DNA of 64,000 nt from a bacterium. Lineage in GTDB: Bacteria; Elusimicrobiota; Elusimicrobia; UBA1565; UBA9628. Position numbers and translations under genes: made by a program. Positions 15,174 through 58,846 of this stretch are shown here, one piece after another. Numbering within the stretch: the stretch's first letter is position 1; every line of letters begins with the position of its first letter. Below the pieces are notes generated by a model that did not search any database, had not been told where the DNA came from, and saw only the letters and a program-made list of their open reading frames with translations. The stretch is from positions 33,034 through 97,033 of the forward strand of contig JAKAQO010000002.1 of the NCBI GenBank assembly GCA_021822495.1. The letters run 5' to 3'.

Positions 15174-15262
15174 AAAGGGACAGTCCCCTTTTCCTCATAA
15201 TCTTAAGGTCGGGACAGCGCCATCCTTAAGAATTATGAAGAAACGGCACAGTCCCCTTTTTA
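15174..15262 (-). repeat. dispersed palindromic repeat, copy B, between convergent genes
   Basis: About 89 bp, the reverse complement of copy A with roughly 80 percent identity by eye. Both ends carry GGGGACTG/CAGTCCCC motifs. It lies immediately after the plus-strand glycosyltransferase stop and reaches the TAA of the minus-strand cysteine-rich gene. The AAAGGGACAGTCCCCTTTT hairpin could act as a terminator for the convergent pair. Confidence 0.75.
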
Positions 15263-15946
15263 GGAACACGAATCCGTGCCTTCCTTGCAACCGTAACGGG
15301 ACTGATAAAAGCACTCCTGTTGAAGCTCTTGGTTTTTTTGAACCTTGGCCTCGCATTCTCCCTGAAGCCGGACTGATTTCTGATAAGAAGCGTCTTTTTG
15401 GAGACAATGCCTTAAACAATCTTTTTGACAGGATTTCCCCGAAAAACTAAAAAGCCTCTTCTTTTCACACCGACTTCGACATTTTGGTTTACACAAGAGT
15501 TCTAATTCTTCTTCAGCGCTCGCGGCATAGACAGCCTCGCAGTGAGTAACACCGTTTCTCACGCAAATTTTCGAATTCCACTCGACGCATTGATCAAGAG
15601 AGCAGGAAGGGTTTGCCCCCGAGTCTTGAACAGATATTTGATTGGGCGAGGAAGAATTTCCCGCGCCCACGACATATTCTCCGGTTGGACCTCCATGAAA
15701 AGCCGAACGAACCGTCGGCGCGCGTACTGAGGGTTGAGAAACCTCAAAAGCTCCGCCGGGGACGGATTTAACGGCGTCATTATGGGTAAAATTATTTTTC
15801 AGTCTCGCGAAATCAACCTGGGTATTGTCGGTCGGGTACCCCGAGCTCCCTCCATCAAGAGTTGGAAACTGCTGAGCCCTGAGTGGAAAAACGAAAACCG
15901 CGCTTGTAAGAGTTAAAAACGCCACGCCTAGGCAAAACCCACGCAT
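15260..15946 (-). CDS. secreted cysteine-rich protein, unknown function
   Basis: Starting at the ATG at 15946 gives a signal peptide MRGFCLGVAFLTLTSAVFVF ending at LRAQ. An upstream in-frame ATG at 16003 would add a hydrophilic stretch and is less likely. The mature protein of about 205 residues has a low-complexity Ser/Gly/Pro first half and a second half with 15 or so cysteines, many paired as CxxxC (CKPKCRSRCEKK, CQKDCLRHCLQ). This suggests a disulfide-stabilised or metal-binding helical domain. The stop codon is the edge of repeat copy B. No family recognised. Confidence 0.65.
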   Translation of the reverse strand: MRGFCLGVAFLTLTSAVFVFPLRAQQFPTLDGGSSGYPTDNTQVDFARLKNNFTHNDAVKSVPGGAFEVSQPSVRAPTVRSAFHGGPTGEYVVGAGNSSSPNQISVQDSGANPSCSLDQCVEWNSKICVRNGVTHCEAVYAASAEEELELLCKPKCRSRCEKKRLFSFSGKSCQKDCLRHCLQKDASYQKSVRLQGECEAKVQKNQELQQECFYQSRYGCKEGTDSCS

Positions 15947-16020
15947 AAAACCATTATGCGCCGAATTTAGGGGTTTGTCAATTGGAAAACTAATTACTGT
16001 CATTTAAAATTGAAAAGTGA

Positions 16021-16243: not shown

Positions 16244-17791
16244 TCATCGCAAAACAATCGGAAAAATCTTCGCGCGGACAGACCTTGGTAAAAGCTGGGG
16301 ATTTTGAGAGTGATTTTTTAAATCCGCCTGGGACTCAACCTCGGGAGACAGATAATCGTAGAGAGAGCCCATACTGATATGTTTAAGATTATTGAGAGCT
16401 TTACCGTTAAGGCCGCGCAAAAAATAATAGGTCAAAAGCCCGTGGCCTTGCCGTTTAAGGACCTCGGCGGTTTGGTTGTCCCGCGCGGCGGTCAAAACGA
16501 CGATTTTACCGTTTCCAGGAACAAAGCCGGGGTTAATATGGGTCTCAAGCGGGCGAAGGCCGGGACGGATAATCGAGCGCGGACCCGCTCCGGAGAAACA
16601 AGAGTCTAAAATAACAATCACGCGGTGGGCGGGAATTTTTAAAAGATCGCCGTAAAGCCTTTTTAAAGGATAGGCGGTCTTCGTCAAAAATTCTGGATTC
16701 CCGTCAAAGGGCACTAAATAAGCCTCGCCTGTGTCCGGGTTGGGAGCGCCGTGGCCGGAAAAATAAAAATATACGCGGGAATCTTTTTTGACGTTTTTAG
16801 GAAGCCAATCTTCCAAATAGGCCGCTAAATCGCTTTTGGTTGCGGTCTCGTTAAGCAAAAGGCGCAAATGTTCATCAGGAACCCCCAAGGCTAAAAAATG
16901 CTTTTGAACGGACACGGCGTCCCGCTCAGAAAATTCAGAGGGCATGACGCCTCCGGCATATTTTTCAACGCCGACCACAACCGCAAAATCATCGGGCTTA
17001 ATGGGACTATGATAGGTGGGAGCGTCCACATCGCTTTTAATTTCGGGAGGTTTTTTAGCTTTCTTAGACTCTTTAAGGCTTTCAATTTCTTTTGCCAGAA
17101 CATCCAAGCGATGAGCGATGTTTTTCTGGGTTGAATTTTGCGCTTCTTGCGCGACTCGAGAAGCAATGCGGGTTATTTCTTCTTTTGACAAATTCTGGCC
17201 CGACAAGCGTTCCACCTCACGCCGAGCGCCCGGCGACGGAGGATGAAGACGATAGTCTTCAATGAGCGCAGCAACCTGCTGATGCTCCATCTGGTAGGCA
17301 TAATCCAAAGCCGTGTGGCCGCTGTCGTCCCGCACCCCCACTCTCGCGCCATGTTTCAAAAGAATTCTCACTAAATCCACTTGTCCATATTTCGCGGCAA
17401 GCATCAAAGCCGTATGCCCATATTTGTTTTGCAAATTGACATCCGCCCCATGTCGAATTAAAAACCGAGCGATGCGCGTTCCCTCTTGAGAAGGGGCAAC
17501 TGAAACGCTGAGCGGGCGAAACTTTGGAAACCGAAACGTGGGTTCAATGAAGTTTGTATTTCTCCACAATTGCGGCATATCCGTGTGCCCACCGGATGCG
17601 ATCTCCATTAAGGCTGTGTCGCCAGAGGAATTCGTAGCATTGATGGAAGCGCCTTGAGAAACGAGTATCCGCGCTTGGGAGAAATCCCCATTTGATACGG
17701 CGCTTAAAAAATCGGAATTAAGACCGGCAAAAGCCCAAGACGACGGGAAGAAAGAAATAAAGAATAAAAGGGAAATAGTCCGAGAGTTCAT
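16244..17791 (-). CDS. secreted ankyrin-repeat caspase-like (C14) protease
   Basis: A 515-residue protein: signal peptide (residues 1-22), ankyrin repeats (about 25-180, e.g. NKYGHTALMLAAKYGQVDLVRILLKHGA), a charged coiled linker (190-265), then a caspase-like domain (265-510). The catalytic dyad is intact: His347 in FSGHGAPNP and Cys398 in ILDSCFSGAG. Such bacterial orthocaspases cleave proteins. Its start overlaps the stop of the radical SAM gene (ATGA), so it belongs to the operon that carries the putative precursor peptide. A protease in such an operon could be the leader peptidase, though its signal peptide puts it outside the cytoplasm. A paralogue lies at 56957-58846. Confidence 0.88.
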   Translation of the reverse strand: MNSRTISLLFFISFFPSSWAFAGLNSDFLSAVSNGDFSQARILVSQGASINATNSSGDTALMEIASGGHTDMPQLWRNTNFIEPTFRFPKFRPLSVSVAPSQEGTRIARFLIRHGADVNLQNKYGHTALMLAAKYGQVDLVRILLKHGARVGVRDDSGHTALDYAYQMEHQQVAALIEDYRLHPPSPGARREVERLSGQNLSKEEITRIASRVAQEAQNSTQKNIAHRLDVLAKEIESLKESKKAKKPPEIKSDVDAPTYHSPIKPDDFAVVVGVEKYAGGVMPSEFSERDAVSVQKHFLALGVPDEHLRLLLNETATKSDLAAYLEDWLPKNVKKDSRVYFYFSGHGAPNPDTGEAYLVPFDGNPEFLTKTAYPLKRLYGDLLKIPAHRVIVILDSCFSGAGPRSIIRPGLRPLETHINPGFVPGNGKIVVLTAARDNQTAEVLKRQGHGLLTYYFLRGLNGKALNNLKHISMGSLYDYLSPEVESQADLKNHSQNPQLLPRSVRAKIFPIVLR

Positions 17792-18789
17792 CGCTGATCA
17801 GATTGCTTTAACTCATCCCACGAGTCCCAACACTCATTAGCATGAAGTAACAGGGCGGGGTCTTCCTGCATCCGTTCGACAAATTTTTTAACAATCGGAG
17901 AACTCCAGGCTTGAACGGCTTTTTTCCAAGCGGCATCCAGTTTTTCTTTCTTTAAGTCCGCCGCGTAAAAAGGAAGGGCGTTGAGAAGTTTGACCTTGCC
18001 ATCGGGAACGACCAAGACCATGGATTGCGGGTTTTGAAGCCTGACTGCGGCTTCGCGGCGAATGTCCCAGGGGTAAGCCGAAATTTTGACCGGATTTCCC
18101 AAGACGTTGGCCCGCTCTTTAATTTTTTGAAGCGTCTTTTCCCAAAGTTCATCGGGAATAGATAAACGCTCCCAAGCCGCAGCGGCTCGCCCCAAACGCA
18201 TCATGGGACCAGTCACAAAAAGACGCGCTCCCAATTGGGCGGCCAACTCGTAAGCAGAAACAGCGTCTTCTATATTCAACTTATTCGGCACGAAAACGAA
18301 CTCCGGTTCAAGACCCGCCTGGGCCAAGGCCTTAAGAGAATCAACGGCTTTTTTCCAGGAACCACTGGGCCTGACCCGTTCATGAATTTCAGCCCTTGAG
18401 CCATCCACGCTAATTTGAATGGAGGAAATTCCCAGATGCTTCAAGCGTTCAATGGCCGCATCATCAATAAAAAGCCCGTTGGTCTCGATTTTAATTTGAG
18501 CCCCGCCGCGGCTTAAAATCTCAAAAACATCCCAAGAGTGCTCAATTAAAAGCGGTTCTCCGCCTCCAAAGGCGACATAGGGAATTCCCAGTTCGACGAT
18601 TTGGCGAGATAAGCTTAAGGCTTCTTCTTTTGAGAGTTCTTTTTTCCAAGCCTTATCCGGACCGGATTCCTCGCAACAATGAAGGCAAAAAGAAGTGCAA
18701 CGGTTGGTCAGTTGCCAAGCAAGAAAGAGGGGAGCGCTATAATCTGCGATCCGCGCCCCCCTTCCCTCAGAATCTTTTAGCATCGCCAC
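17788..18789 (-). CDS. radical SAM enzyme 1 of a RiPP-type operon
   Basis: A 333-residue radical SAM protein. The [4Fe-4S] motif CTSFCLHC (Cys31, 35, 38) is followed by GGGEP, IKIETNG and QISVDGS blocks. The C-terminal part has PDGKVKLLNALPFYAADL, the position where SPASM domains carry cluster cysteines, but those are absent. Radical SAM enzymes of this kind modify ribosomal peptides. The gene is the third paralogue in the operon. Its 5' end lies at a 64-bp repeat created with the Fic insertion. The original start was probably the GTG now stranded at 20402, and the present start is GTG 18789 or ATG 18783. Confidence 0.85.
   Translation of the reverse strand: MAMLKDSEGRGARIADYSAPLFLAWQLTNRCTSFCLHCCEESGPDKAWKKELSKEEALSLSRQIVELGIPYVAFGGGEPLLIEHSWDVFEILSRGGAQIKIETNGLFIDDAAIERLKHLGISSIQISVDGSRAEIHERVRPSGSWKKAVDSLKALAQAGLEPEFVFVPNKLNIEDAVSAYELAAQLGARLFVTGPMMRLGRAAAAWERLSIPDELWEKTLQKIKERANVLGNPVKISAYPWDIRREAAVRLQNPQSMVLVVPDGKVKLLNALPFYAADLKKEKLDAAWKKAVQAWSSPIVKKFVERMQEDPALLLHANECWDSWDELKQSDQR
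18699..18762. repeat. 64-bp perfect direct repeat, copy 1
   Basis: Identical over 64 bp to 20327-20390. It encodes the N-terminal RGARIADYSAPLFLAWQLTN part of radical SAM enzyme 1. The two copies bracket the Fic gene, and the duplicated unit is 1628 bp. Confidence 0.92.
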
Positions 18790-18805: not shown

Positions 18806-20308
18806 TTAAAAACGCTTCATCAAACGCGCTAATGCCGCTGTTAACCCATTGTCAAGAAGTTCATCCAATTCCTTCTTGCGGTCTACAATAATAGAATCCG
18901 CCTTCTCCGCATGCACAAACCGAAATGAATCCTTGTTGCTTTCAATATCGCGCGAGGGAGATTGGACATCCTTTCTCCCAGATGGATCGTCTTCTATGAC
19001 GGCAAATGTCGTCACGGCCATAACGCCCGAGTCTCGGCCAGCGCCATGTAGAGACGTCACATATTTTAACTGCAAGCCTTCAACGCGAATACGAAGGCTC
19101 GCCCAGGAAGAAAAAAGAGTGAAATCAGCCAAATGGCCCGCAACGCGAGAGGAGTTTATAATATCGTTTTTATACCAGTGCGCATTTGAATCGCCGGGAC
19201 CAGCGCAATCAAAGACAATTTTTACATCAGAAATACCTTTTTCCTTAAAGATGCCGCGTAATTCTTCATTTTTCTTTTTAAACCAATGCTGAATTTCTGC
19301 CTGAACCGCTTTAGCTCTACTATTAAGGGCTTTTTGCCTCTGCGTTTCTTGCCTGCGCCGCAAAGCCGAAAGCTGATCCGCAAGAGTGTGCGCGACATCG
19401 GCGGATAGTCCGCCAACAAGAAGCTCTTGCGGCCGCTCCAACTCGCCAGCGAGGGCATTGCTTTCTAAACGCGTAAAAAGAGCGACCAAGGGATTTAAGT
19501 CCCCGTCATTAGCCACATCCAATGCTTTAAGATAGTCATCTCTATGAAAACGATCCACGACCAAAGGCGCAAAATGATGTTTATCAAGAACCAAAAGAGT
19601 GAGAGCGCGCGCAACCCTCCCATTTCCATCAGCGAACGGATGAACGCAAACAAAGCCATGATGAAACCAAGCGGCCTTCACAATTGGGTGAATTTCTTGT
19701 TTAGAATCAATTTCTTCAAACAAACGGACAAGCTCATCCATTTCTGAAGCGACATGCTCCGGAGGAGTGTACTCTAAAATCGTACCGTCTTGCCTTTCCA
19801 CATGATTGGGTTGAATCTTCCACCCGCCATGGTCGAGAGGGACCTCCATTTTTCGGCCATTCACGTCGTAAACGATATGCGTCAACTGGGTACGGGTAAG
19901 CGCGCTATGCAGTTCTTTAATGAATGCCGTGTTAAGATTTCTCTCCGCGCGGACAAATTCAAGCACCATCTGCAGACTATCTCTTTGGGCTTTAAGCGTC
20001 TCCAAAACATCTTCATTAATCCGCCCACCTTCCCGTTCAACGACATCTCGGCTAAAGCCTTCGGCGACAAGAGTCAACGTTAATCCCCAATCAATATCAT
20101 ACAAGCGTTCAATAATACCCGTTTCTATTGATAATTTGCGCAGGCTTCTTTGACGAACCAAAGTCCGCTCTTTTTCCGACATGGATTTTAAATATTCGGC
20201 CCATTCCTCGCGCAGGGAATCAAGGGCCGCCAAGCTCCCATTGGTGGATATTTTTCTCATGTCCAAAGGAGCAATACGGCGCCATGGAATTTTTTTTTCG
20301 TTAGACAT
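18806..20308 (-). CDS. Fic-domain protein (probable AMP transferase)
   Basis: A 500-residue protein with the canonical Fic motif HPFADGNGRVAR at 223-234; Fic enzymes usually transfer AMP to a hydroxyl on a target protein. An N-terminal TGIIER (63-68) matches the position of the inhibitory [S/T]xxxE[G/N] motif but ends in Arg. The C-terminal half (about 290-500) has a coiled stretch and an unrecognised domain. The gene lies between two perfect 64-bp repeats inside the RiPP-type operon, separating the precursor gene from radical SAM gene 1, and looks like a recent insertion. The target is unknown. A toxin-like or regulatory role are both possible. Confidence 0.88.
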   Translation of the reverse strand: MSNEKKIPWRRIAPLDMRKISTNGSLAALDSLREEWAEYLKSMSEKERTLVRQRSLRKLSIETGIIERLYDIDWGLTLTLVAEGFSRDVVEREGGRINEDVLETLKAQRDSLQMVLEFVRAERNLNTAFIKELHSALTRTQLTHIVYDVNGRKMEVPLDHGGWKIQPNHVERQDGTILEYTPPEHVASEMDELVRLFEEIDSKQEIHPIVKAAWFHHGFVCVHPFADGNGRVARALTLLVLDKHHFAPLVVDRFHRDDYLKALDVANDGDLNPLVALFTRLESNALAGELERPQELLVGGLSADVAHTLADQLSALRRRQETQRQKALNSRAKAVQAEIQHWFKKKNEELRGIFKEKGISDVKIVFDCAGPGDSNAHWYKNDIINSSRVAGHLADFTLFSSWASLRIRVEGLQLKYVTSLHGAGRDSGVMAVTTFAVIEDDPSGRKDVQSPSRDIESNKDSFRFVHAEKADSIIVDRKKELDELLDNGLTAALARLMKRF

Positions 20309-20402
20309 AATATTTAGTCAACTGAAAACGGTTGGTCAGTTGCCAAGCAAGAAAGAGGGGAGCGCTATAATCTGCGATCCGCGCCCCCCTCTCGTGAGTC
20401 AC
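20301..20402 (-). pseudogene. stranded 5' end of radical SAM gene 1
   Basis: Starting at GTG 20402, which overlaps the precursor stop (GTGA), the frame reads MTHERGARIADYSAPLFLAW then QLTNR before leaving the homology and stopping inside the Fic gene start. It matches the N termini of the other radical SAM enzymes. I infer it is the original start of radical SAM gene 1, cut off by the Fic insertion. Confidence 0.75.
20327..20390. repeat. 64-bp perfect direct repeat, copy 2
   Basis: Identical to 18699-18762. This copy is continuous with the precursor gene and the original GTG start, so it is likely the ancestral position. Homology ends exactly at both borders. Confidence 0.92.
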
Positions 20403-20521
20403 GTGAACCGAATGTAGGGCTGCGCCATCACCCGCTCGGAAACCTCTTCCATTTTGGGAGTTTCCCAGACGAGCTTTTTCGAGGCTTTCGCCCCCTCGCT
20501 CACGTTTTTTTGGTCGTTCAT
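20399..20521 (-). CDS. putative RiPP precursor peptide (40 residues)
   Basis: A small gene with a strong ribosome-binding site (AAGGAG, 6 bases before the ATG at 20521). The peptide begins with a charged, Lys/Glu-rich leader (MNDQKNVSEGAKASKK), then LVWETPKMEEVSERV and a short end MAQPYIRFT. The W-x-x-P-K-x-x-E pattern resembles leaders bound by PqqD-type recognition domains in radical SAM peptide pathways. The C-terminal Tyr, Ile, Arg, Phe and Thr are candidate modified residues. Its position between radical SAM genes 2 and 1, with a PqqD-like gene in the same operon, is the main functional argument. PqqA and MftA are analogues in role, not clear homologues. Confidence 0.75.
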   Translation of the reverse strand: MNDQKNVSEGAKASKKLVWETPKMEEVSERVMAQPYIRFT

Positions 20522-20540: not shown

Positions 20541-21509
20541 CTAGACCATAGCCGGCAAATCAGATTCTTCCAAAGGCTTCAAGTGATTCGCTGTCGCTAA
20601 AACCGAAGAATCTTTGAGAATCTCATCAAAGCCTGAAGATATCTTAGGATTTTGATAAGCCTTTTGACACTTCTCCCAAGACTCAATCAAATTTTCTTTT
20701 CTCAAATCAGCGCAGATATAAGGCAAAAAACCTGAAACGCGCACGCGCCCATCCGGCAAAATTAAAAGAGTCGCGGGCATAGCCCCCTTTTTCATTTTTA
20801 AATCTTCTTCGATAGAAAACGGCCTAAATGAGAGTTCCATCTGTCCGGCCAATTCTTTCTCCTTTCTCTCAAGCAGATTATAAAATTTTTTGTATTCGGC
20901 GCGCGAAAGTTCAAGTCTGTCCCACAGTTTTGCCGCGGTCCCAATTCTCATGAGGCTCCCGCTGTTAAAACGAAAAGCCCCGAGACTGGCGGCCAAATCA
21001 ATGACGGCCTCGGCCTCGGCGATGTTAATTTGAGTGGGAGCAAAGGTAATTTCAAGCGGGAGATTGTATTTTCGCGCCGCGCGACAGGCGGAAATAGTTT
21101 TTTCCAGAACCCCTCCTGGGCGCATTTTAGAATAAACGGCCTGGGTGGCCCCGTCTATTGAAATTTGAAGAGAGCGAATCGGCAAGAAAGAGAGTCTCTC
21201 CGCTTCTTTTTCCCCAAAAATTTGCCCATTGGTCTCGATTTTAAGATAGACCGCGCCGCCGCGCCCCAAAGCCTCCGCGACTTCAAAGAAATGCGGGACA
21301 GTCAAGGGTTCTCCCCCCGCTAACAAGACATAGGGAACCTGAGCTTGAATTATTTGATCGGCAACGGACAAAGATTCCTCGCGGTTTAATTCATTGGGAA
21401 AAGGCTTATGGGGCGCGGAATCGGTGCAACAATGGAGACACGCCAGATTGCAATCCCGGGTCATTTGCCAGGCGATAAAACTCGGGGCCGATAGTTCGGA
21501 AATTTTCAC
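20541..21509 (-). CDS. radical SAM enzyme 2 of the RiPP-type operon
   Basis: A 322-residue radical SAM protein when started at GTG 21509, which overlaps the UbiA stop (GTGA). An ATG at 21560 would overlap ubiA by 55 bases and add a non-homologous stretch. The cluster motif is CNLACLHC (Cys20, 24, 27), with LLAGGEPLT, LKIETNG and LQISIDGA following. Near the C terminus is LPDGRVRVSGFLPYICADLR, a SPASM-like core with a single cysteine, so an auxiliary Fe-S cluster is doubtful. Paralogous to enzymes 1 and 3. It probably acts on the peptide encoded 20 bp downstream. Confidence 0.87.
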   Translation of the reverse strand: MKISELSAPSFIAWQMTRDCNLACLHCCTDSAPHKPFPNELNREESLSVADQIIQAQVPYVLLAGGEPLTVPHFFEVAEALGRGGAVYLKIETNGQIFGEKEAERLSFLPIRSLQISIDGATQAVYSKMRPGGVLEKTISACRAARKYNLPLEITFAPTQINIAEAEAVIDLAASLGAFRFNSGSLMRIGTAAKLWDRLELSRAEYKKFYNLLERKEKELAGQMELSFRPFSIEEDLKMKKGAMPATLLILPDGRVRVSGFLPYICADLRKENLIESWEKCQKAYQNPKISSGFDEILKDSSVLATANHLKPLEESDLPAMV

Positions 21510-22426
21510 CGGTGAATAATCAAGCTTAAAGTAAAAACGGAAGTCGCGACCAAATAGCACAAAACGATATTTTTAATGGCTGGAACAAAGAGGCGCGGGC
21601 TGTCCCAGGTTTTCAAAGCGGTCTTCGCGCTGAGAACCCAAAAGGGAATTCCGGCCAAGGCCGCAAAAAAAGCGAGTTTTGGGAAAACGCCCAGAACTGA
21701 TCCGATGATTGAAACCAGAAGCCCCAAAGCGGAAAGCCCCAAATACAGAAAAACGCCGTTTTTGCGCCCCAACCTCACGACCAAATTTCTCTTTCCCACC
21801 AAGCGGTCCTGATAGAAATCAGGAATGGCATTGACAACGGCTAAGGACATAATCAAAAGCCCGGGAACCAAAGACGCCGCCAAAGCGTTCCAAGAAAAAT
21901 GATGGGTGTAAAGGGCTAAACTCCCCAAGGTCATCCACGGCCCATAAGAAAGGCCGATCATGAGTTCTCCCATTCCCCGGTAAACCCAGCGAATGGGCGG
22001 GCCCACATAAAAAAGAGCGGCAAGGCCGCCCAGAAGAGTGTAGAGAATAACGGGCCATCCGCCAAATTTAGCCAAATAAAAGCCGACAGATGCCGCAACC
22101 GCGAAAGAAGCGATTCCCAGCCACAGCATCCACTCCGGGATATATTCATCGTCGGAAGGATTAAAGACGCGATCAGTTCCCATGCGGGCATCAAAATATT
22201 CATTGAAGGACTCAACCCCGACAACCGAGAGAAATATTCCAAACAGCCCAAGCCCGAACAAGTAGAAGGAAAAAGTTTTCTCTACGCCATAGGCCCAGGC
22301 CGAACCTAAAAGATAAGGAAGAAGCCCCGCATAGAGAAAAAACCGGTAGCGAATCAAAGAGAAGACGCGAAAAGGCGCGTCTAAAACTCCAAGACGCTCT
22401 TTTACGATCGCTTCAGCCACGCTCAA
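21506..22426 (-). CDS. UbiA-family prenyltransferase
   Basis: A 306-residue membrane protein with about eight or nine helices and both Asp-rich motifs of the family: NEYFDARMGTD (residues 75-85) and IPDFYQDRLVGKRN. UbiA enzymes attach a polyprenyl chain to an aromatic ring, as MenA does in menaquinone synthesis. The motif DRLVGKRNLVVRLG is MenA-like. It sits between radical SAM genes 3 and 2, with overlaps on both sides, and a polyprenyl diphosphate synthetase begins the operon. The natural inference is prenylation of the pathway's aromatic or peptide-derived product, but an unrelated quinone role is possible. Confidence 0.9.
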   Translation of the reverse strand: MSVAEAIVKERLGVLDAPFRVFSLIRYRFFLYAGLLPYLLGSAWAYGVEKTFSFYLFGLGLFGIFLSVVGVESFNEYFDARMGTDRVFNPSDDEYIPEWMLWLGIASFAVAASVGFYLAKFGGWPVILYTLLGGLAALFYVGPPIRWVYRGMGELMIGLSYGPWMTLGSLALYTHHFSWNALAASLVPGLLIMSLAVVNAIPDFYQDRLVGKRNLVVRLGRKNGVFLYLGLSALGLLVSIIGSVLGVFPKLAFFAALAGIPFWVLSAKTALKTWDSPRLFVPAIKNIVLCYLVATSVFTLSLIIHR

Positions 22427-23400
22427 ACCTCAACCCATTTATGGAGCTTTGAAACCACCGTCGGATCTCTTTCCAGTTCCTGGACAAAGCCGTAAACCTT
22501 CGGGTTTTTCCAGGCTTCCTGAAAATGCTTCCAGACTTGGCCCAGGGATTGCTGGCGCAAATTCCCGCAGACAAAGGGAAGGGCGTTGATGAGTTTCACC
22601 TTGCCGTTGGGCAAGATAATGAAAAGGGCCGCCGGGTTTTCCAGGCGATATTTCAGCTCTTCTAAAATCCCCATTTCATGAAAATACACCCGCATTCGGC
22701 CATCATATTCTTTAGCTTTCAAACGCAAAGTATCAAAAAAGGTGGGGTAATCGGCTTCATCGGGCGCGGTTATCTTCCAGGTCCGAACGGCGTTTCCGGT
22801 GTACATGATTTTTCCGGTGTAGAAGCTGTAAGCTCCAAGCTGGTATGCTAAATCGACCACATCAGCGATTTCCTTGATATTAAATTTCGCTGGAACGAAA
22901 TTAATCTCAATAGGAACCCCCGCTTCGCGCAAATTTTTAATTCCCTCGATGGCCGACTCAAAGCGCCCGTGAATCCGCATCTTATCAAAGGACGCCGGGT
23001 TGGCGCCGTCTAAAGAAACCTGAACGGCCTTGACCCCGAAAGTTTTAAGCCGCTTGCAATTTTCAGGCGTCAAATAATGGCCATTGGTCTCAATTTTAAG
23101 TCCCACCCCGCCTTTGATGATTCTTTCAACCATCTCGAAAAAATGCGGATGAACCATCGGCTCTCCGCCGGAAAATGAGACGTAGGGCACTTGCCCGGCA
23201 ATCAACTGATCGATGACGGAAAAGGCCTCGTCTTTTGTCAGCTCGTCTTTAAAGGCTTTTCCAGGACCCGATTCTTCAATACAATGCAGGCAAGCGAGGT
23301 TACACTCATTGGTAATCTGCCAGGCGACATACAGGGGCGCGCCTAAATCTTCCGAAGAAACGGTTTCGTCCGCTTCTTTAACTTGGGTTACAGAAGCCAT
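22423..23400 (-). CDS. radical SAM enzyme 3 of the RiPP-type operon
   Basis: A 325-residue radical SAM protein with CNLACLHC (Cys33, 37, 40), SFSGGEPMV, LKIETNGHYL and VQVSLDGA. The C-terminal LPNGKVKLINALPFVCGNLR followed by SLGQVW is a clear SPASM-like core (G-N-L/I ... S-L-x-x-V-W), but only one cysteine is present. Its start shares one base with the stop of the PqqD-like gene, and its end overlaps ubiA (ATGA), so the three genes are tightly coupled. It is the most SPASM-like of the three paralogues and a good candidate for first modification of the precursor. Confidence 0.88.
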   Translation of the reverse strand: MASVTQVKEADETVSSEDLGAPLYVAWQITNECNLACLHCIEESGPGKAFKDELTKDEAFSVIDQLIAGQVPYVSFSGGEPMVHPHFFEMVERIIKGGVGLKIETNGHYLTPENCKRLKTFGVKAVQVSLDGANPASFDKMRIHGRFESAIEGIKNLREAGVPIEINFVPAKFNIKEIADVVDLAYQLGAYSFYTGKIMYTGNAVRTWKITAPDEADYPTFFDTLRLKAKEYDGRMRVYFHEMGILEELKYRLENPAALFIILPNGKVKLINALPFVCGNLRQQSLGQVWKHFQEAWKNPKVYGFVQELERDPTVVSKLHKWVEV

Positions 23401-23840
23401 TATTCGATGATGAGGCCCTTGCCTTTGAGCTCGCTTAAAAAGCTGGCGGCCTCTTTTTCCATGTTTCCAGATGAGTCTTCGTATTTTTCCTTAAGTTTTC
23501 CAATCAAAGACGAAGAATCAGCTCCGGCGACGATCTCCCGCACAACGGCCGCGCCGGTCGGGCTTAAAGTATAAACTTTCTCGGAACGCGTCTCAAACAA
23601 AACCGCTCCAAATTTCTCTTCTCTAAATTTCACAAACGGCGCTAATTTCATGACTCCTCCCTTTGATGCGGCTAAACACGAAGACGCGTCCGCCGCTTCT
23701 CTTTCGATGATTTCCTCTAGTTCCCGCCGCACGTTCTCGCGGTTCTGAACATTTTTTGCGTCCTTTGAATTTGCGTCATCTTCCGATACGACAAAATCCC
23801 CCGACTTCCAGGCTTTCTTTAAAAGAGATTGATAGGACAT
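23400..23840 (-). CDS. PqqD-like peptide recognition protein
   Basis: A 146-residue protein. Residues 65-146 match the PqqD/MftB fold: LAPFVKFREEKFGAVLFETR, then VYTLSPTGAAVVREIV, KLKEKYED and a final FLSELKGKGLIIE. PqqD-type proteins bind the precursor leader and present it to the radical SAM enzyme. The first 60 residues are a charged extension, possibly a linker or coiled region. It is coupled to the polyprenyl synthetase upstream and radical SAM gene 3 downstream by one-base overlaps. This is the strongest single indicator of a RiPP-type pathway. Confidence 0.87.
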   Translation of the reverse strand: MSYQSLLKKAWKSGDFVVSEDDANSKDAKNVQNRENVRRELEEIIEREAADASSCLAASKGGVMKLAPFVKFREEKFGAVLFETRSEKVYTLSPTGAAVVREIVAGADSSSLIGKLKEKYEDSSGNMEKEAASFLSELKGKGLIIE

Positions 23841-24793
23841 TAAAATTCTCTTTTGGCCATCACTTCAATAAAGAAAGACAAATCCTTGGCTTCATTTTTT
23901 AAGGGCAAGCCCTGACAAAGGGTTTTCATGGAATCGACAATCTCCCGCCCTTTAGAGCGGGCCTCATCCAAAAATCCTTCCGCCTTCACAAATGAAATCG
24001 CCTGCTTGACCGCTTGAAGATCGGTTTCGCCTTTGCGCCACAAATCTAAAAAATCTCCGCGGGTTTTTTGGTTTTGAAGAGCGAGAATGCAAGGGAGCGT
24101 CAAACGGCGGTTCAACATATCCTGGGCCGCGGGCTTGCCTGAAACTTCTTCGGTCAGTAAAAAATCGTGAATATCATCCACAATCTGAAGCAAGATTCCG
24201 GCGGATAAAGCGAGCCTTGGCGGATCGGAAGCATCATGGGGAAAAGGACTGATTTCAGAAAGAACTTTTCCGCACCATTCAAAGAGAGCCCCAGTTTTTC
24301 GAGCGGCGATTCCCAAATAAGCCTCAACCGAAACTTCAACGCTCCCCTTTAAAAATTCTTCCTGGAGTTCCCCGGCCGCCATTTCCCGAACCGTCGTCAC
24401 CAAATGTTCCGGCGCGCGCGGAGAAATATCAATGGCTTCCTCAAGCCCTTGAGAAAAAGCAAGATCGCCTAGAAGAAGAGCGACCGTGTTTCCGAAAAGA
24501 GCGTTTGGGGTCGCGAGTCCCCGCCTGGTGTCAGCCTTATCCACGCAATCATCATGCAAAAGAGAAGCGTTATGGACAAACTCCATCGCGCGGGAAGCCG
24601 CCTCCGCTTTTTTCTCATCCACGCCCAAGGCTTTGGCTAGTAACAGACAAAAACGCGCCCGCAGCATTTTTCCCGGGCGGCCGACGTATCCGGCCAGGGT
24701 TTCGCCCACGCGGCCGGACAAGCGCTTCGAGCGGTTTTCCATGCCGAGCCGAACCCGCTCGACCGAATCTTCAAGACTAAGTAAAGTCAACAT
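23840..24793 (-). CDS. polyprenyl diphosphate synthetase (first gene of the operon)
   Basis: A 317-residue trans-prenyltransferase. The first Asp-rich motif is DDCVD in LLHDDCVDKADTRRG (residues 81-85) and the second is DDIHD in LQIVDDIHD. GRPGKMLRARFCLLLAKALG is the substrate-binding start. Both motifs needed for Mg-dependent chain elongation are intact. The enzyme makes a polyprenyl diphosphate of unknown length, the likely donor for the UbiA protein two genes on. A promoter-like sequence lies 15 bases before its ATG. Confidence 0.9.
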   Translation of the reverse strand: MLTLLSLEDSVERVRLGMENRSKRLSGRVGETLAGYVGRPGKMLRARFCLLLAKALGVDEKKAEAASRAMEFVHNASLLHDDCVDKADTRRGLATPNALFGNTVALLLGDLAFSQGLEEAIDISPRAPEHLVTTVREMAAGELQEEFLKGSVEVSVEAYLGIAARKTGALFEWCGKVLSEISPFPHDASDPPRLALSAGILLQIVDDIHDFLLTEEVSGKPAAQDMLNRRLTLPCILALQNQKTRGDFLDLWRKGETDLQAVKQAISFVKAEGFLDEARSKGREIVDSMKTLCQGLPLKNEAKDLSFFIEVMAKREF

Positions 24794-55721: not shown

Positions 55722-56918
55722 ATGATTAACAAAGATTTTGATTTAATCTCCAAGGAAGATATCGAGCGCTTGATATCTGATCAAGTTATGGAAGGTCACG
55801 AGTTGGATTACAAAGAAGCGTTACCGGACAATAATGATGAGGCGAAAAAGGAGTTCCTTGCGGATGTTTGTTCTTTTGCGAACTCTTCCGGAGGCTCGCT
55901 TATATACGGCGTTAAAGACAAGCGCGATAAGAATGGAAAGACAACGGGAGTTCCTGAAACTGCTGAGGGGCTAGGAACTAAAAATCCTGATGAGGAAATT
56001 CGGCGGCTTGAATCTATGTTGCAAGATGGAGTGAAGCCCCGAATAACCGGAGTGCTCATGAAACATCTGGAAGGTTTTTCCAAGGGCCCCGTTATTTTGA
56101 TTAGAGTCCCAAAAAGCTGGAATTCACCGCACATGGTTTCGTTCAAGAATTCTTCCAAATTCTATGCAAGAAATAATGCTGGAAAACATCAGCTTGATTT
56201 AGGTGAAATTCGATCCGCATTTCTTTTGTCTGAGACTCTTTCAGAAAAAATTAGGCGATTTCGAGATGACCGAATCGCCAAAATTTTATCCGATGAAACC
56301 CCCATCCATCTTGAATGCAAAAACCGAATCGTATTACATTTGATCCCTTTTTCTTCGATGAGTCCCTTAAGCGTTGTGAATTTAGCCCAGATTCAAAATA
56401 ATGGTAGTCATTATAAGAACCTTAACCCAATTTCAGCAGAGGAACACTTCGGACCTCGGTATAATTTTGATGGACTCTTGACCCATGCCCACGAATGCTA
56501 TTTACAAATATTCCGCAATGGGATGATTGAAGCAGTCGATACCACATTGCTTTCGTCAAATGGGAGAATAATTCCCAATCCCAATTTTGAAGAGTTGATA
56601 TACCAAGCAGCAGAGCGTTATTTAAAATTACAGAAATCCATTGGAATATCTCCACCTATTATCATCTTATTGACGCTTCTAAACATCAAAGGTTACTCCA
56701 TAAAAACAAAAATTATCGCTGTGTTTGAACAGATAGGAAAACCTAAGACCCCAATAGATCGTGATATTCTGGTCTTACCGGATATGTTGGTTAATGATTT
56801 TTCAGAGCCAATTGACGCGCTTTTTCGTCCAATTTTTGACATTATCTGGCAAGCATGTGGCTATAACGCTTGTCCAAATTACAATTCAAATGGCGAATGG
56901 ACAAGGGATGGGCGATAA
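55722..56918 (+). CDS. AlbA/Schlafen-type ATP-binding domain protein
   Basis: A 398-residue protein. Residues 20-160 match the AlbA_2 (Schlafen AAA_4) domain: EGHELDYKEALP, FLADVCSFANSSGGSLIYGVKD, ILIRVPKSWNSPHMV and FYARNNAGKHQLD. The C-terminal half is unrecognised. Such domains occur in transcription regulators and in phage-defence proteins. The base composition is more AT-rich than neighbouring genes. The stop is 38 bp before the ankyrin-caspase gene. Confidence 0.85.
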   Translation: MINKDFDLISKEDIERLISDQVMEGHELDYKEALPDNNDEAKKEFLADVCSFANSSGGSLIYGVKDKRDKNGKTTGVPETAEGLGTKNPDEEIRRLESMLQDGVKPRITGVLMKHLEGFSKGPVILIRVPKSWNSPHMVSFKNSSKFYARNNAGKHQLDLGEIRSAFLLSETLSEKIRRFRDDRIAKILSDETPIHLECKNRIVLHLIPFSSMSPLSVVNLAQIQNNGSHYKNLNPISAEEHFGPRYNFDGLLTHAHECYLQIFRNGMIEAVDTTLLSSNGRIIPNPNFEELIYQAAERYLKLQKSIGISPPIIILLTLLNIKGYSIKTKIIAVFEQIGKPKTPIDRDILVLPDMLVNDFSEPIDALFRPIFDIIWQACGYNACPNYNSNGEWTRDGR

Positions 56919-56956
56919 ATTCGCGGGAAACTATTTTAAGCAACGGAGAAATAGAG

Positions 56957-58846
56957 ATGAACATAAAATTTACCCTTAAAAAAAGCAGGGGTTTCTTGCC
57001 CCAAGTTTTCATCTTAGCGCTGGTTTTTCCGCTTCTCCTTGTTGGGACAATCAGAGCTGAGGATGAAAACGCGGTATTAATCCAGGCGGCGAAAAATGGA
57101 GATCTCACGGGAGTCGAGCAAGCCCTTAGTTCTGGTGCTAATTCCAATGCCAAGGATAATGATGGATATACCGCGCTGATGTTCGCCACTGCCACAGGCA
57201 AGGCCAACGTGGTTTCCGCCCTTCTCAAAGCCGGGGCCGACCCTAATGCCAAGGATAATGATGGATATACCGCGCTGATGGACGCCGCCTTAGCTGGCAA
57301 AGCCAGTGTAATACCTGTCCTCGCAAAAGCTGGAGCTGATCTCAATGCCAAGGATAATAAGTACGGAGCGACTGCGTTGATGTTCGCCGCCAACACAGAC
57401 AAGGCCAACGTGGTTTCCGCCCTTCTCAAAGCCGGAGCCGATCTCACCAAGGATAATAAGTACGGAAGGACTGCGCTGATGGTTGCCGCTCAAAATGGCA
57501 AAGCCAATGTGATTCCGCTCCTCATCAAAGCCGGAGCCGATATCAATGCCCAGGATAACAATGGATATACCGCGCTGATGCTCACCGCTCAATATGGCCA
57601 CGCTAATGTAATTCCTGTCCTCGCAAAAGCCGGGGCCGATCTCAATGCCCAGGATAATAAGCACGGAGCGACTGCGTTGATGTGGGCCGCTCAAGCTGGC
57701 AAGGCCAATGTAATTTCTGTCCTCGCCAAAGCCGGCGCTGATCTCAATGCCAAGGATAAAAATGGAAATACCACGCTGATGCTCGCCGCTAACACTGGCC
57801 ATGCCAACGTGGTTTCAGCTCTTCTTCAGGCTGGAGCGGATACCAATATCAAGAATAATAATGGACAGAGCGCTGAAGATATAGCCCAACAAGGGGGGTA
57901 TTCCAATATTGTTTCTCTCATCGAAAACTGGAAAGCCTCCAACCCCGAAACTCCTGCCGCAAGCCCGGAGCTCTCCCAAAGCGAGGTCCAACAAATCGCT
58001 CAACAAGCGGCTAATCAGGCCCTGGCTAATATGGAAAAAGAGAAACAGCAAAAACCCGCCGAGAAAACCTATCACTCTTCCGTGGATAAGCCCAATTACA
58101 AACTTCCGGAGGATGACCGAAAATTTGCCGTGGTCATCGGAATTGAAAAGTATCCCTCGCTTCCCTCCGCTGATTTCGCTGCGCGCGACGCTAAAGCCAT
58201 GAGACGCCATTTAATCGCTCTCGGATATCCCCCAAGGCATATTAAGTTTCTTCTCAACGAAGGGGCGACGCGCGGACGGCTTAAAGCGGCGTTTCACCAT
58301 TGGCTTCCTAAAAACGTCAAGGCCAATTCCACTGTTTTCATCTATTATTCCGGACACGGTGCCCCGAACCCGGCTTCAAAATCAGCTTATCTTGTCACCT
58401 ATGACGCGGAAGTGGGCGACCTTGAAGATACCGCCTATTCTGTTGACCGGCTGAACCGCGATCTTGCAAGACTCAAGACCAAGCAAGTCATTATCGCCCT
58501 TGATTCCTGCTTTTCCGGAGCCGGAGGCCGTTCGGTTTTAGCGCGCGGGGCGCGCCCATTGGTTAATCAAATCTCCGGCGCTTTTTGGTCGCAAGCAGGC
58601 TCCATCATCAGGGTAACGGCCGCAAAATCTAATCAAATATCCGGAACCTACGAAAAAAAAGGACACGGCCTTTTTACTTATTATTTCCTTAAAGGGCTCA
58701 ACGGAAGGGCGGCGAAATCCGGCCACGTAAGTTTGCGCTCTCTCTACCAATATGTCCGTCCAAAGGTCGAGGACAAGGCGAGTCTAAACAGCCAAACCCA
58801 GGACCCCCAACTTTTTCCGCCCCGCGCCAATTTAAGTTTGCGCTAA
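56957..58846 (+). CDS. secreted ankyrin-repeat caspase-like (C14) protease 2
   Basis: A 629-residue protein: signal peptide (to about residue 34), about nine ankyrin repeats (37-320), a coiled linker (335-385) and a caspase-like domain (386-629). Catalytic residues are His467 in YSGHGAPNP and Cys518 in ALDSCFSGAG, the same 51-residue spacing as in the 16.2-kb paralogue. The repeats are nearly identical at DNA level (about 100-bp units with GCCAAGGATAAT), so copy number may vary. The ATG at 56957 follows GGAG by 8 bases. It is probably exported. Target unknown. Confidence 0.9.
   Translation: MNIKFTLKKSRGFLPQVFILALVFPLLLVGTIRAEDENAVLIQAAKNGDLTGVEQALSSGANSNAKDNDGYTALMFATATGKANVVSALLKAGADPNAKDNDGYTALMDAALAGKASVIPVLAKAGADLNAKDNKYGATALMFAANTDKANVVSALLKAGADLTKDNKYGRTALMVAAQNGKANVIPLLIKAGADINAQDNNGYTALMLTAQYGHANVIPVLAKAGADLNAQDNKHGATALMWAAQAGKANVISVLAKAGADLNAKDKNGNTTLMLAANTGHANVVSALLQAGADTNIKNNNGQSAEDIAQQGGYSNIVSLIENWKASNPETPAASPELSQSEVQQIAQQAANQALANMEKEKQQKPAEKTYHSSVDKPNYKLPEDDRKFAVVIGIEKYPSLPSADFAARDAKAMRRHLIALGYPPRHIKFLLNEGATRGRLKAAFHHWLPKNVKANSTVFIYYSGHGAPNPASKSAYLVTYDAEVGDLEDTAYSVDRLNRDLARLKTKQVIIALDSCFSGAGGRSVLARGARPLVNQISGAFWSQAGSIIRVTAAKSNQISGTYEKKGHGLFTYYFLKGLNGRAAKSGHVSLRSLYQYVRPKVEDKASLNSQTQDPQLFPPRANLSLR

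Follow-up and report, generated by a model that had tools for sequence, protein, structure and literature searches.

In a 64,000-nucleotide stretch of an Elusimicrobiota genome (the window), the gene for an ankyrin-caspase overlaps the last conserved gene of an operon that encodes a short peptide, three radical SAM proteins and a prenyltransferase. We consider it likely that this gene specifies an exported, metacaspase-like protease that is coupled to the operon in a single genus and stands outside maturation of the operon peptide. The caspase is a further metacaspase-like protease, and it is the operon that makes the locus noteworthy.

A metacaspase-like protease predicted to be exported

The caspase gene (16244–17791, minus strand) encodes a metacaspase-like Peptidase C14 protein of 515 residues. 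Pfam assigns residues 269–508 to Peptidase_C14 (PF00656, E = 8.8e-12, above the Pfam cut-off) and approximately residues 104–176 to ankyrin repeats (E = 2.7e-22). The catalytic residues, described as intact in the initial annotation, are indeed so: His347 in the motif SGHG (codon 16751–16753, minus strand) and Cys398 in DSCFSG (16598–16600, minus strand) are invariant across an alignment of 30 sequences. The signal peptide claimed for the protein also stands, as a prediction. Judged by eye, the N-terminus, MNSRTISLLFFISFFPSSWAFA followed by GLNS, resembles a type I signal peptide spanning residues 1–22 (17726–17791, minus strand) with cleavage after AFA, and the sequence (A/S)FAGLNS at the predicted cut is retained in all five orthologues, suggesting that the protein is exported.

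An AlphaFold model of the caspase has a mean pLDDT of 81, with most of the caspase domain above 90, with ankyrin-type helices spanning approximately residues 19–182. The best match to this model in a fold search is Arabidopsis metacaspase 4 (AtMC4; Z 23.9, rmsd 2.8, 224 aligned), and the next solved chains are the bacterial protein GSU0716 (Z 22.8) and MALT1 (Z 22.2). These matches were made by fold, whereas no solved structure was matched at E ≤ 0.1 when the caspase domain was searched by sequence on its own. The fold neighbours and the DSC motif point to cleavage after Lys or Arg; this basic specificity is an expectation rather than a result, because it derives from the cleavage of substrates after Arg or Lys by metacaspases (PMC3501461). 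The top curated match to the caspase domain is the NCBIfam model NF047832 (caspase, EACC1-associated type; E = 3.3e-19), of which the protein is not a member (69 bits against a cut-off of 140). PADLOC matched only general caspase, ankyrin and other candidate defence models, and we did not count these general matches as evidence for a defence gene.

Tight coupling to radical SAM 1 in one genus

Radical SAM 1 (SAM1; 17788–18789, minus strand, 333 residues, GTG start) is the last conserved gene of the operon. Its stop codon shares four bases with the caspase start codon (ATGA, 17788–17791, minus strand), as first noted from this genome, and the caspase gene, the −4 overlap and the catalytic dyad are all present in five of five genomes of this Elusimicrobiota genus, those of the congeners being fragmented metagenome assemblies. 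Within the genus the caspase orthologues fall to about 69% identity with the overlap still kept in all five, which may mean that co-expression brings some benefit. The caspase is evolving faster than the operon genes, with a dN/dS of about 0.13–0.17 in unsaturated pairs that indicates purifying selection; this selection shows that the protein has retained a function, which in this genus could be connected with the pathway. The five SAM1-linked caspases form one clade (support 100/100) separate from their paralogues, which is consistent with a single arrival. In all five genomes the order is SAM1, caspase and a Cys-rich secreted protein (15260–16003, minus strand, without a match in a Pfam search), with an extra caspase-like gene in between in the congener G004. 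This additional gene (locus L101) encodes 362 residues on the opposite strand, directly after the SAM1-linked caspase.

The caspase family itself provides a control for this linkage. This genome carries six ankyrin-caspase genes, the second of those in the window lying at 56870–58846 on the plus strand. Among the paralogues in the same genus, one group has a 4-nt overlap with a response-regulator-like gene in three genomes, another follows a MotB-like gene in all five genomes (gap of −1 to +18 nt), and a third adjoins a FeoB-like gene, again in all five; these neighbours are named from reading their sequences rather than from a family search. The coupling is thus not specific to the operon, because paralogous caspases are packed likewise against unrelated genes. 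Several paralogues also have lipobox-like N-termini, so that export appears to be a family trait. Overlap and export are therefore habits of the caspase gene family in this genus. According to a survey from 2012, 46.6% of the prokaryotic metacaspases that it examined are encoded in predicted operons, whose functions vary widely (PMC3501461). For a gene from an expanded family, a tight and conserved overlap is a weak sign of shared function, and paralogues in the same genome are the control against which it should be read.

The operon beyond the genus

All genes of the operon lie on the minus strand. In the window they encode a polyprenyl diphosphate synthase (23840–24793), a PqqD-type peptide-binding protein (23400–23840), radical SAM 3 (SAM3; 22423–23400), a UbiA/MenA-like prenyltransferase (21506–22426), radical SAM 2 (20541–21560), a 40-residue precursor peptide (20399–20521), MNDQKNVSEGAKASKKLVWETPKMEEVSERVMAQPYIRFT, and SAM1. 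The PqqD-type protein matches PF05402, and the three radical SAM proteins match PF04055 and carry CxxxCxxC. The last ten residues of the peptide (20402–20431), VMAQPYIRFT, are identical in all 31 Elusimicrobiota peptides compared (27 of them distinct) and also end the proteobacterial peptides that were read, the proteobacterial locus L169 having yielded no peptide in the search. The gene order recurs across the bacterial order, where 37 of the 57 relatives searched have a SAM3 match at E ≤ 1e-40, and the same order is found in Alpha-, Beta- and Gammaproteobacteria, including Rhodopila globiformis DSM 161 and Rhodothalassium salexigens DSM 2132. The polyprenyl diphosphate synthase is present in most Elusimicrobiota operons and absent from the proteobacterial ones.

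Two local departures from this arrangement were seen. In this genome a Fic gene (18806–20308) lies between the peptide and SAM1 and is bounded on both sides by a perfect 64-nt direct repeat (18699–18762 and 20327–20390) that holds the SAM1 start region; in the congeners Fic is absent there and the peptide and SAM1 lie close together. It thus appears that this species acquired the Fic gene within the operon and that SAM1 was left intact. In the congener G004 the UbiA gene (L101:12353–13278) is split into two overlapping frames, which reflects a frameshift or an assembly error.

The distribution of the caspase was counted over 56 distinct operons from Elusimicrobiota and Proteobacteria with at least 800 nt of readable DNA after SAM1. 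The caspase directly follows SAM1 in five of these, all from the one genus, and in none of the other 51 (0/51) from either phylum. Whether the pair recurs in other genomes thus has a divided answer: the linkage holds throughout the genus and is absent from the operons counted beyond it. The only other operon with a caspase copy nearby is that of G010, at a distance of 2.6 kb and on the opposite strand. Two genomes that have the operon and are both rated 100% complete (G032 and G035) lack a caspase of this kind at E ≤ 1e-40, and five others (G005, G006, G016, G020 and G048) have such caspases and no SAM3 match at E ≤ 1e-40. Clustering of the ORFs that follow SAM1 in other genera gave no shared family, and we therefore rejected the idea of a shared downstream peptidase there. 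Because the overlap with SAM1 is confined to one genus, the caspase is probably a neighbour of the operon and not its missing peptidase.

The leader-peptidase question and other explanations

The initial annotation proposed that the caspase supplies the leader peptidase of the pathway, on the ground that the operon contains no other. We rejected the caspase as a universal leader peptidase on the distribution above and on the conservation of the candidate sites. Immediately ahead of the peptide core, 29 of 31 Elusimicrobiota peptides carry Arg and the remaining two (G039 and G044) carry Gln, as do most of those from Proteobacteria; a Lys at −18 is found also in G012, G018 and G022, whose genus has no linked caspase. 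The suggested search for a basic cleavage site in the precursor accordingly went against the proposal, as none of the basic sites near the core tracks the presence of the caspase. The statement that no other peptidase is present held for the conserved operon, although in this genome a secreted trypsin-like gene (25748–24909, minus strand) is found 115 bp upstream of the first operon gene. We rejected this gene as the peptidase since it does not lie beside the operon in congeners with readable upstream DNA, a comparison outside which G002 falls because its contig begins at the operon.

A narrower form of the proposal, in which the caspase is the leader peptidase in this genus only, cutting for example between SER and VMAQPYIRFT while another peptidase serves other lineages, can draw on the ATGA coupling in all five genomes, the fact that the conserved genes of the operon include no further peptidase, the Arg/Lys cleavage expected of a metacaspase-like fold and the Arg that directly precedes the invariant core. 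However, the same Arg is found in genera without a linked caspase and hence is not a matched site, it gives way to Gln in most Proteobacteria and in G039 and G044, most of the order has the same core without the caspase, and the caspase evolves faster than the genes it would serve. Compartment may also speak against it: by eye the caspase appears to have a signal sequence and the precursor has none, and the modifying enzymes of the operon are of cytosolic types. We regard this explanation as very unlikely. That the caspase is instead a genus-specific accessory of the envelope, acting on something that depends on the operon product so that co-expression is useful without being biosynthetic, is unlikely. 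The order of SAM1, caspase and Cys-rich protein in five of five genomes and the purifying selection on the caspase favour it, and its target might be a membrane protein or the Cys-rich secreted protein itself. Nevertheless, paralogous caspases are equally tightly placed and equally conserved behind unrelated genes, so co-expression here says little about shared function. As for the overlap itself, the genomes are metagenome-derived and the caspase start could in principle be elsewhere, but five separate assemblies all show the overlap, with the ATG preceding a signal-like N-terminus in each, which makes a gene-calling or assembly artefact extremely improbable.

The bystander role that the initial annotation allowed as its alternative fits best. 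In the account that we favour, the caspase belongs to a family of ankyrin-metacaspase-like cysteine proteases that is expanded in this bacterial order, and one copy would have been placed directly behind SAM1 in the ancestor of the genus. It is now probably translated from the operon mRNA by stop–start coupling at the ATGA. Its most probable site of action is the cell envelope, where protein substrates would be bound through the ankyrin repeats and cut after Lys or Arg, and it would play no part in maturing the operon peptide. A genus-specific role on a downstream product is possible. The operon would be a separate and more widespread pathway, in which three radical SAM enzymes guided by the PqqD-type protein would modify the short peptide and UbiA probably attaches a polyprenyl chain.

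A possible product of the operon

The core of the peptide is unchanged across two phyla, which suggests that the product is a small molecule of constant structure, comparable in this to PQQ, rather than an antibiotic. We tentatively propose, as a reading that could well prove wrong, that the operon converts its ribosomal peptide into a prenylated, quinone-like electron carrier of the membrane, with the caspase as a passenger or at most an accessory in one genus. The three PqqD-guided radical SAM enzymes would rework the VMAQPYIRFT end, which has one Tyr and one Phe, and UbiA would add the polyprenyl chain. The carrier would replace menaquinone in Elusimicrobiota and would be an extra carrier in Proteobacteria, perhaps for anaerobic respiration.

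Several features of the genomes support this proposal. This genome has genes of Complex I type and for cytochrome oxidase, and searches of it for the futalosine pathway and MenD were without a match. Operon-bearing Elusimicrobiota have NuoH-family proteins, as detected with PF00146, which matches hydrogenase subunits too, and the searched members of this group gave no futalosine-pathway match and no MenD above the cut-off. Members of the class that do have futalosine genes (G048–G051) lack the operon, a pattern of mutual exclusion. The second UbiA of this genome lies in a cytochrome oxidase cluster, adjoining CtaA- and CoxA/B/C-like genes, and we therefore read it as CtaB. The operon UbiA is then the one remaining candidate found for lipoquinone synthesis. 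Beside proteobacterial operons there are Polyketide_cyc (COQ10-like START) genes (L165:13945–14421, and in L178), and other operons adjoin genes for fumarate reductase (FrdAB; L170:13986–16613), a NapC/NirT cytochrome and an MtrB-like porin (L173:14261–16966) or a NiFe hydrogenase (L163:7224–9020). Against the proposal, G005–G009 have NuoH-family proteins and neither pathway was found complete in them.

Menaquinone was considered as the product of the proteobacterial operon and rejected. In Rhodopila a MenB-like gene is present (318 bits, cut-off 342.7), and the membranes of this bacterium contain ubiquinone, menaquinone and rhodoquinone, so that its menaquinone can be accounted for without the operon. 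The MenB-like gene and the known quinones of Rhodopila may also weigh against the carrier proposal. More broadly, a conserved operon combining a peptide, radical SAM enzymes and UbiA is found in bacteria that have respiratory genes and seemingly lack menaquinone genes, and R. globiformis DSM 161 and R. salexigens DSM 2132 are named strains in which its role could be tested.

Comparison with known systems

The caspase has the fold of prokaryotic metacaspases (orthocaspases) and shares their His–Cys dyad in SGHG and DSCFSG motifs, but adds an N-terminal signal peptide, as predicted, and ankyrin repeats. The main text of the 2012 survey of prokaryotic metacaspases does not mention ankyrin, and the survey counted zero metacaspases in Elusimicrobia at that time (PMC3501461). 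Among the papers that our literature searches covered, none pairs an orthocaspase with ankyrin and none combines PqqD, UbiA and radical SAM.

Like the PQQ and mycofactocin systems, the operon has a short precursor with an invariant end, a PqqD-type partner and radical SAM proteins related to MftC, PqqE and NirJ. It differs from them in having three radical SAM proteins and a UbiA prenyltransferase, joined in most Elusimicrobiota by the polyprenyl diphosphate synthase, and in having another core sequence. Its proteins also miss every equivalog cut-off: the radical SAM proteins score 101–133 bits against the MftC model (cut-off 265) and 55–84 bits against PqqE (cut-off 381). The operon UbiA is closest to the MenA models (E = 1.3e-28; 100 bits against a cut-off of 264) and in this resembles the enzymes of MenA/UbiA quinone prenylation, but it occurs in Elusimicrobiota that, in the searches described above, are without futalosine genes and without a MenD above cut-off.
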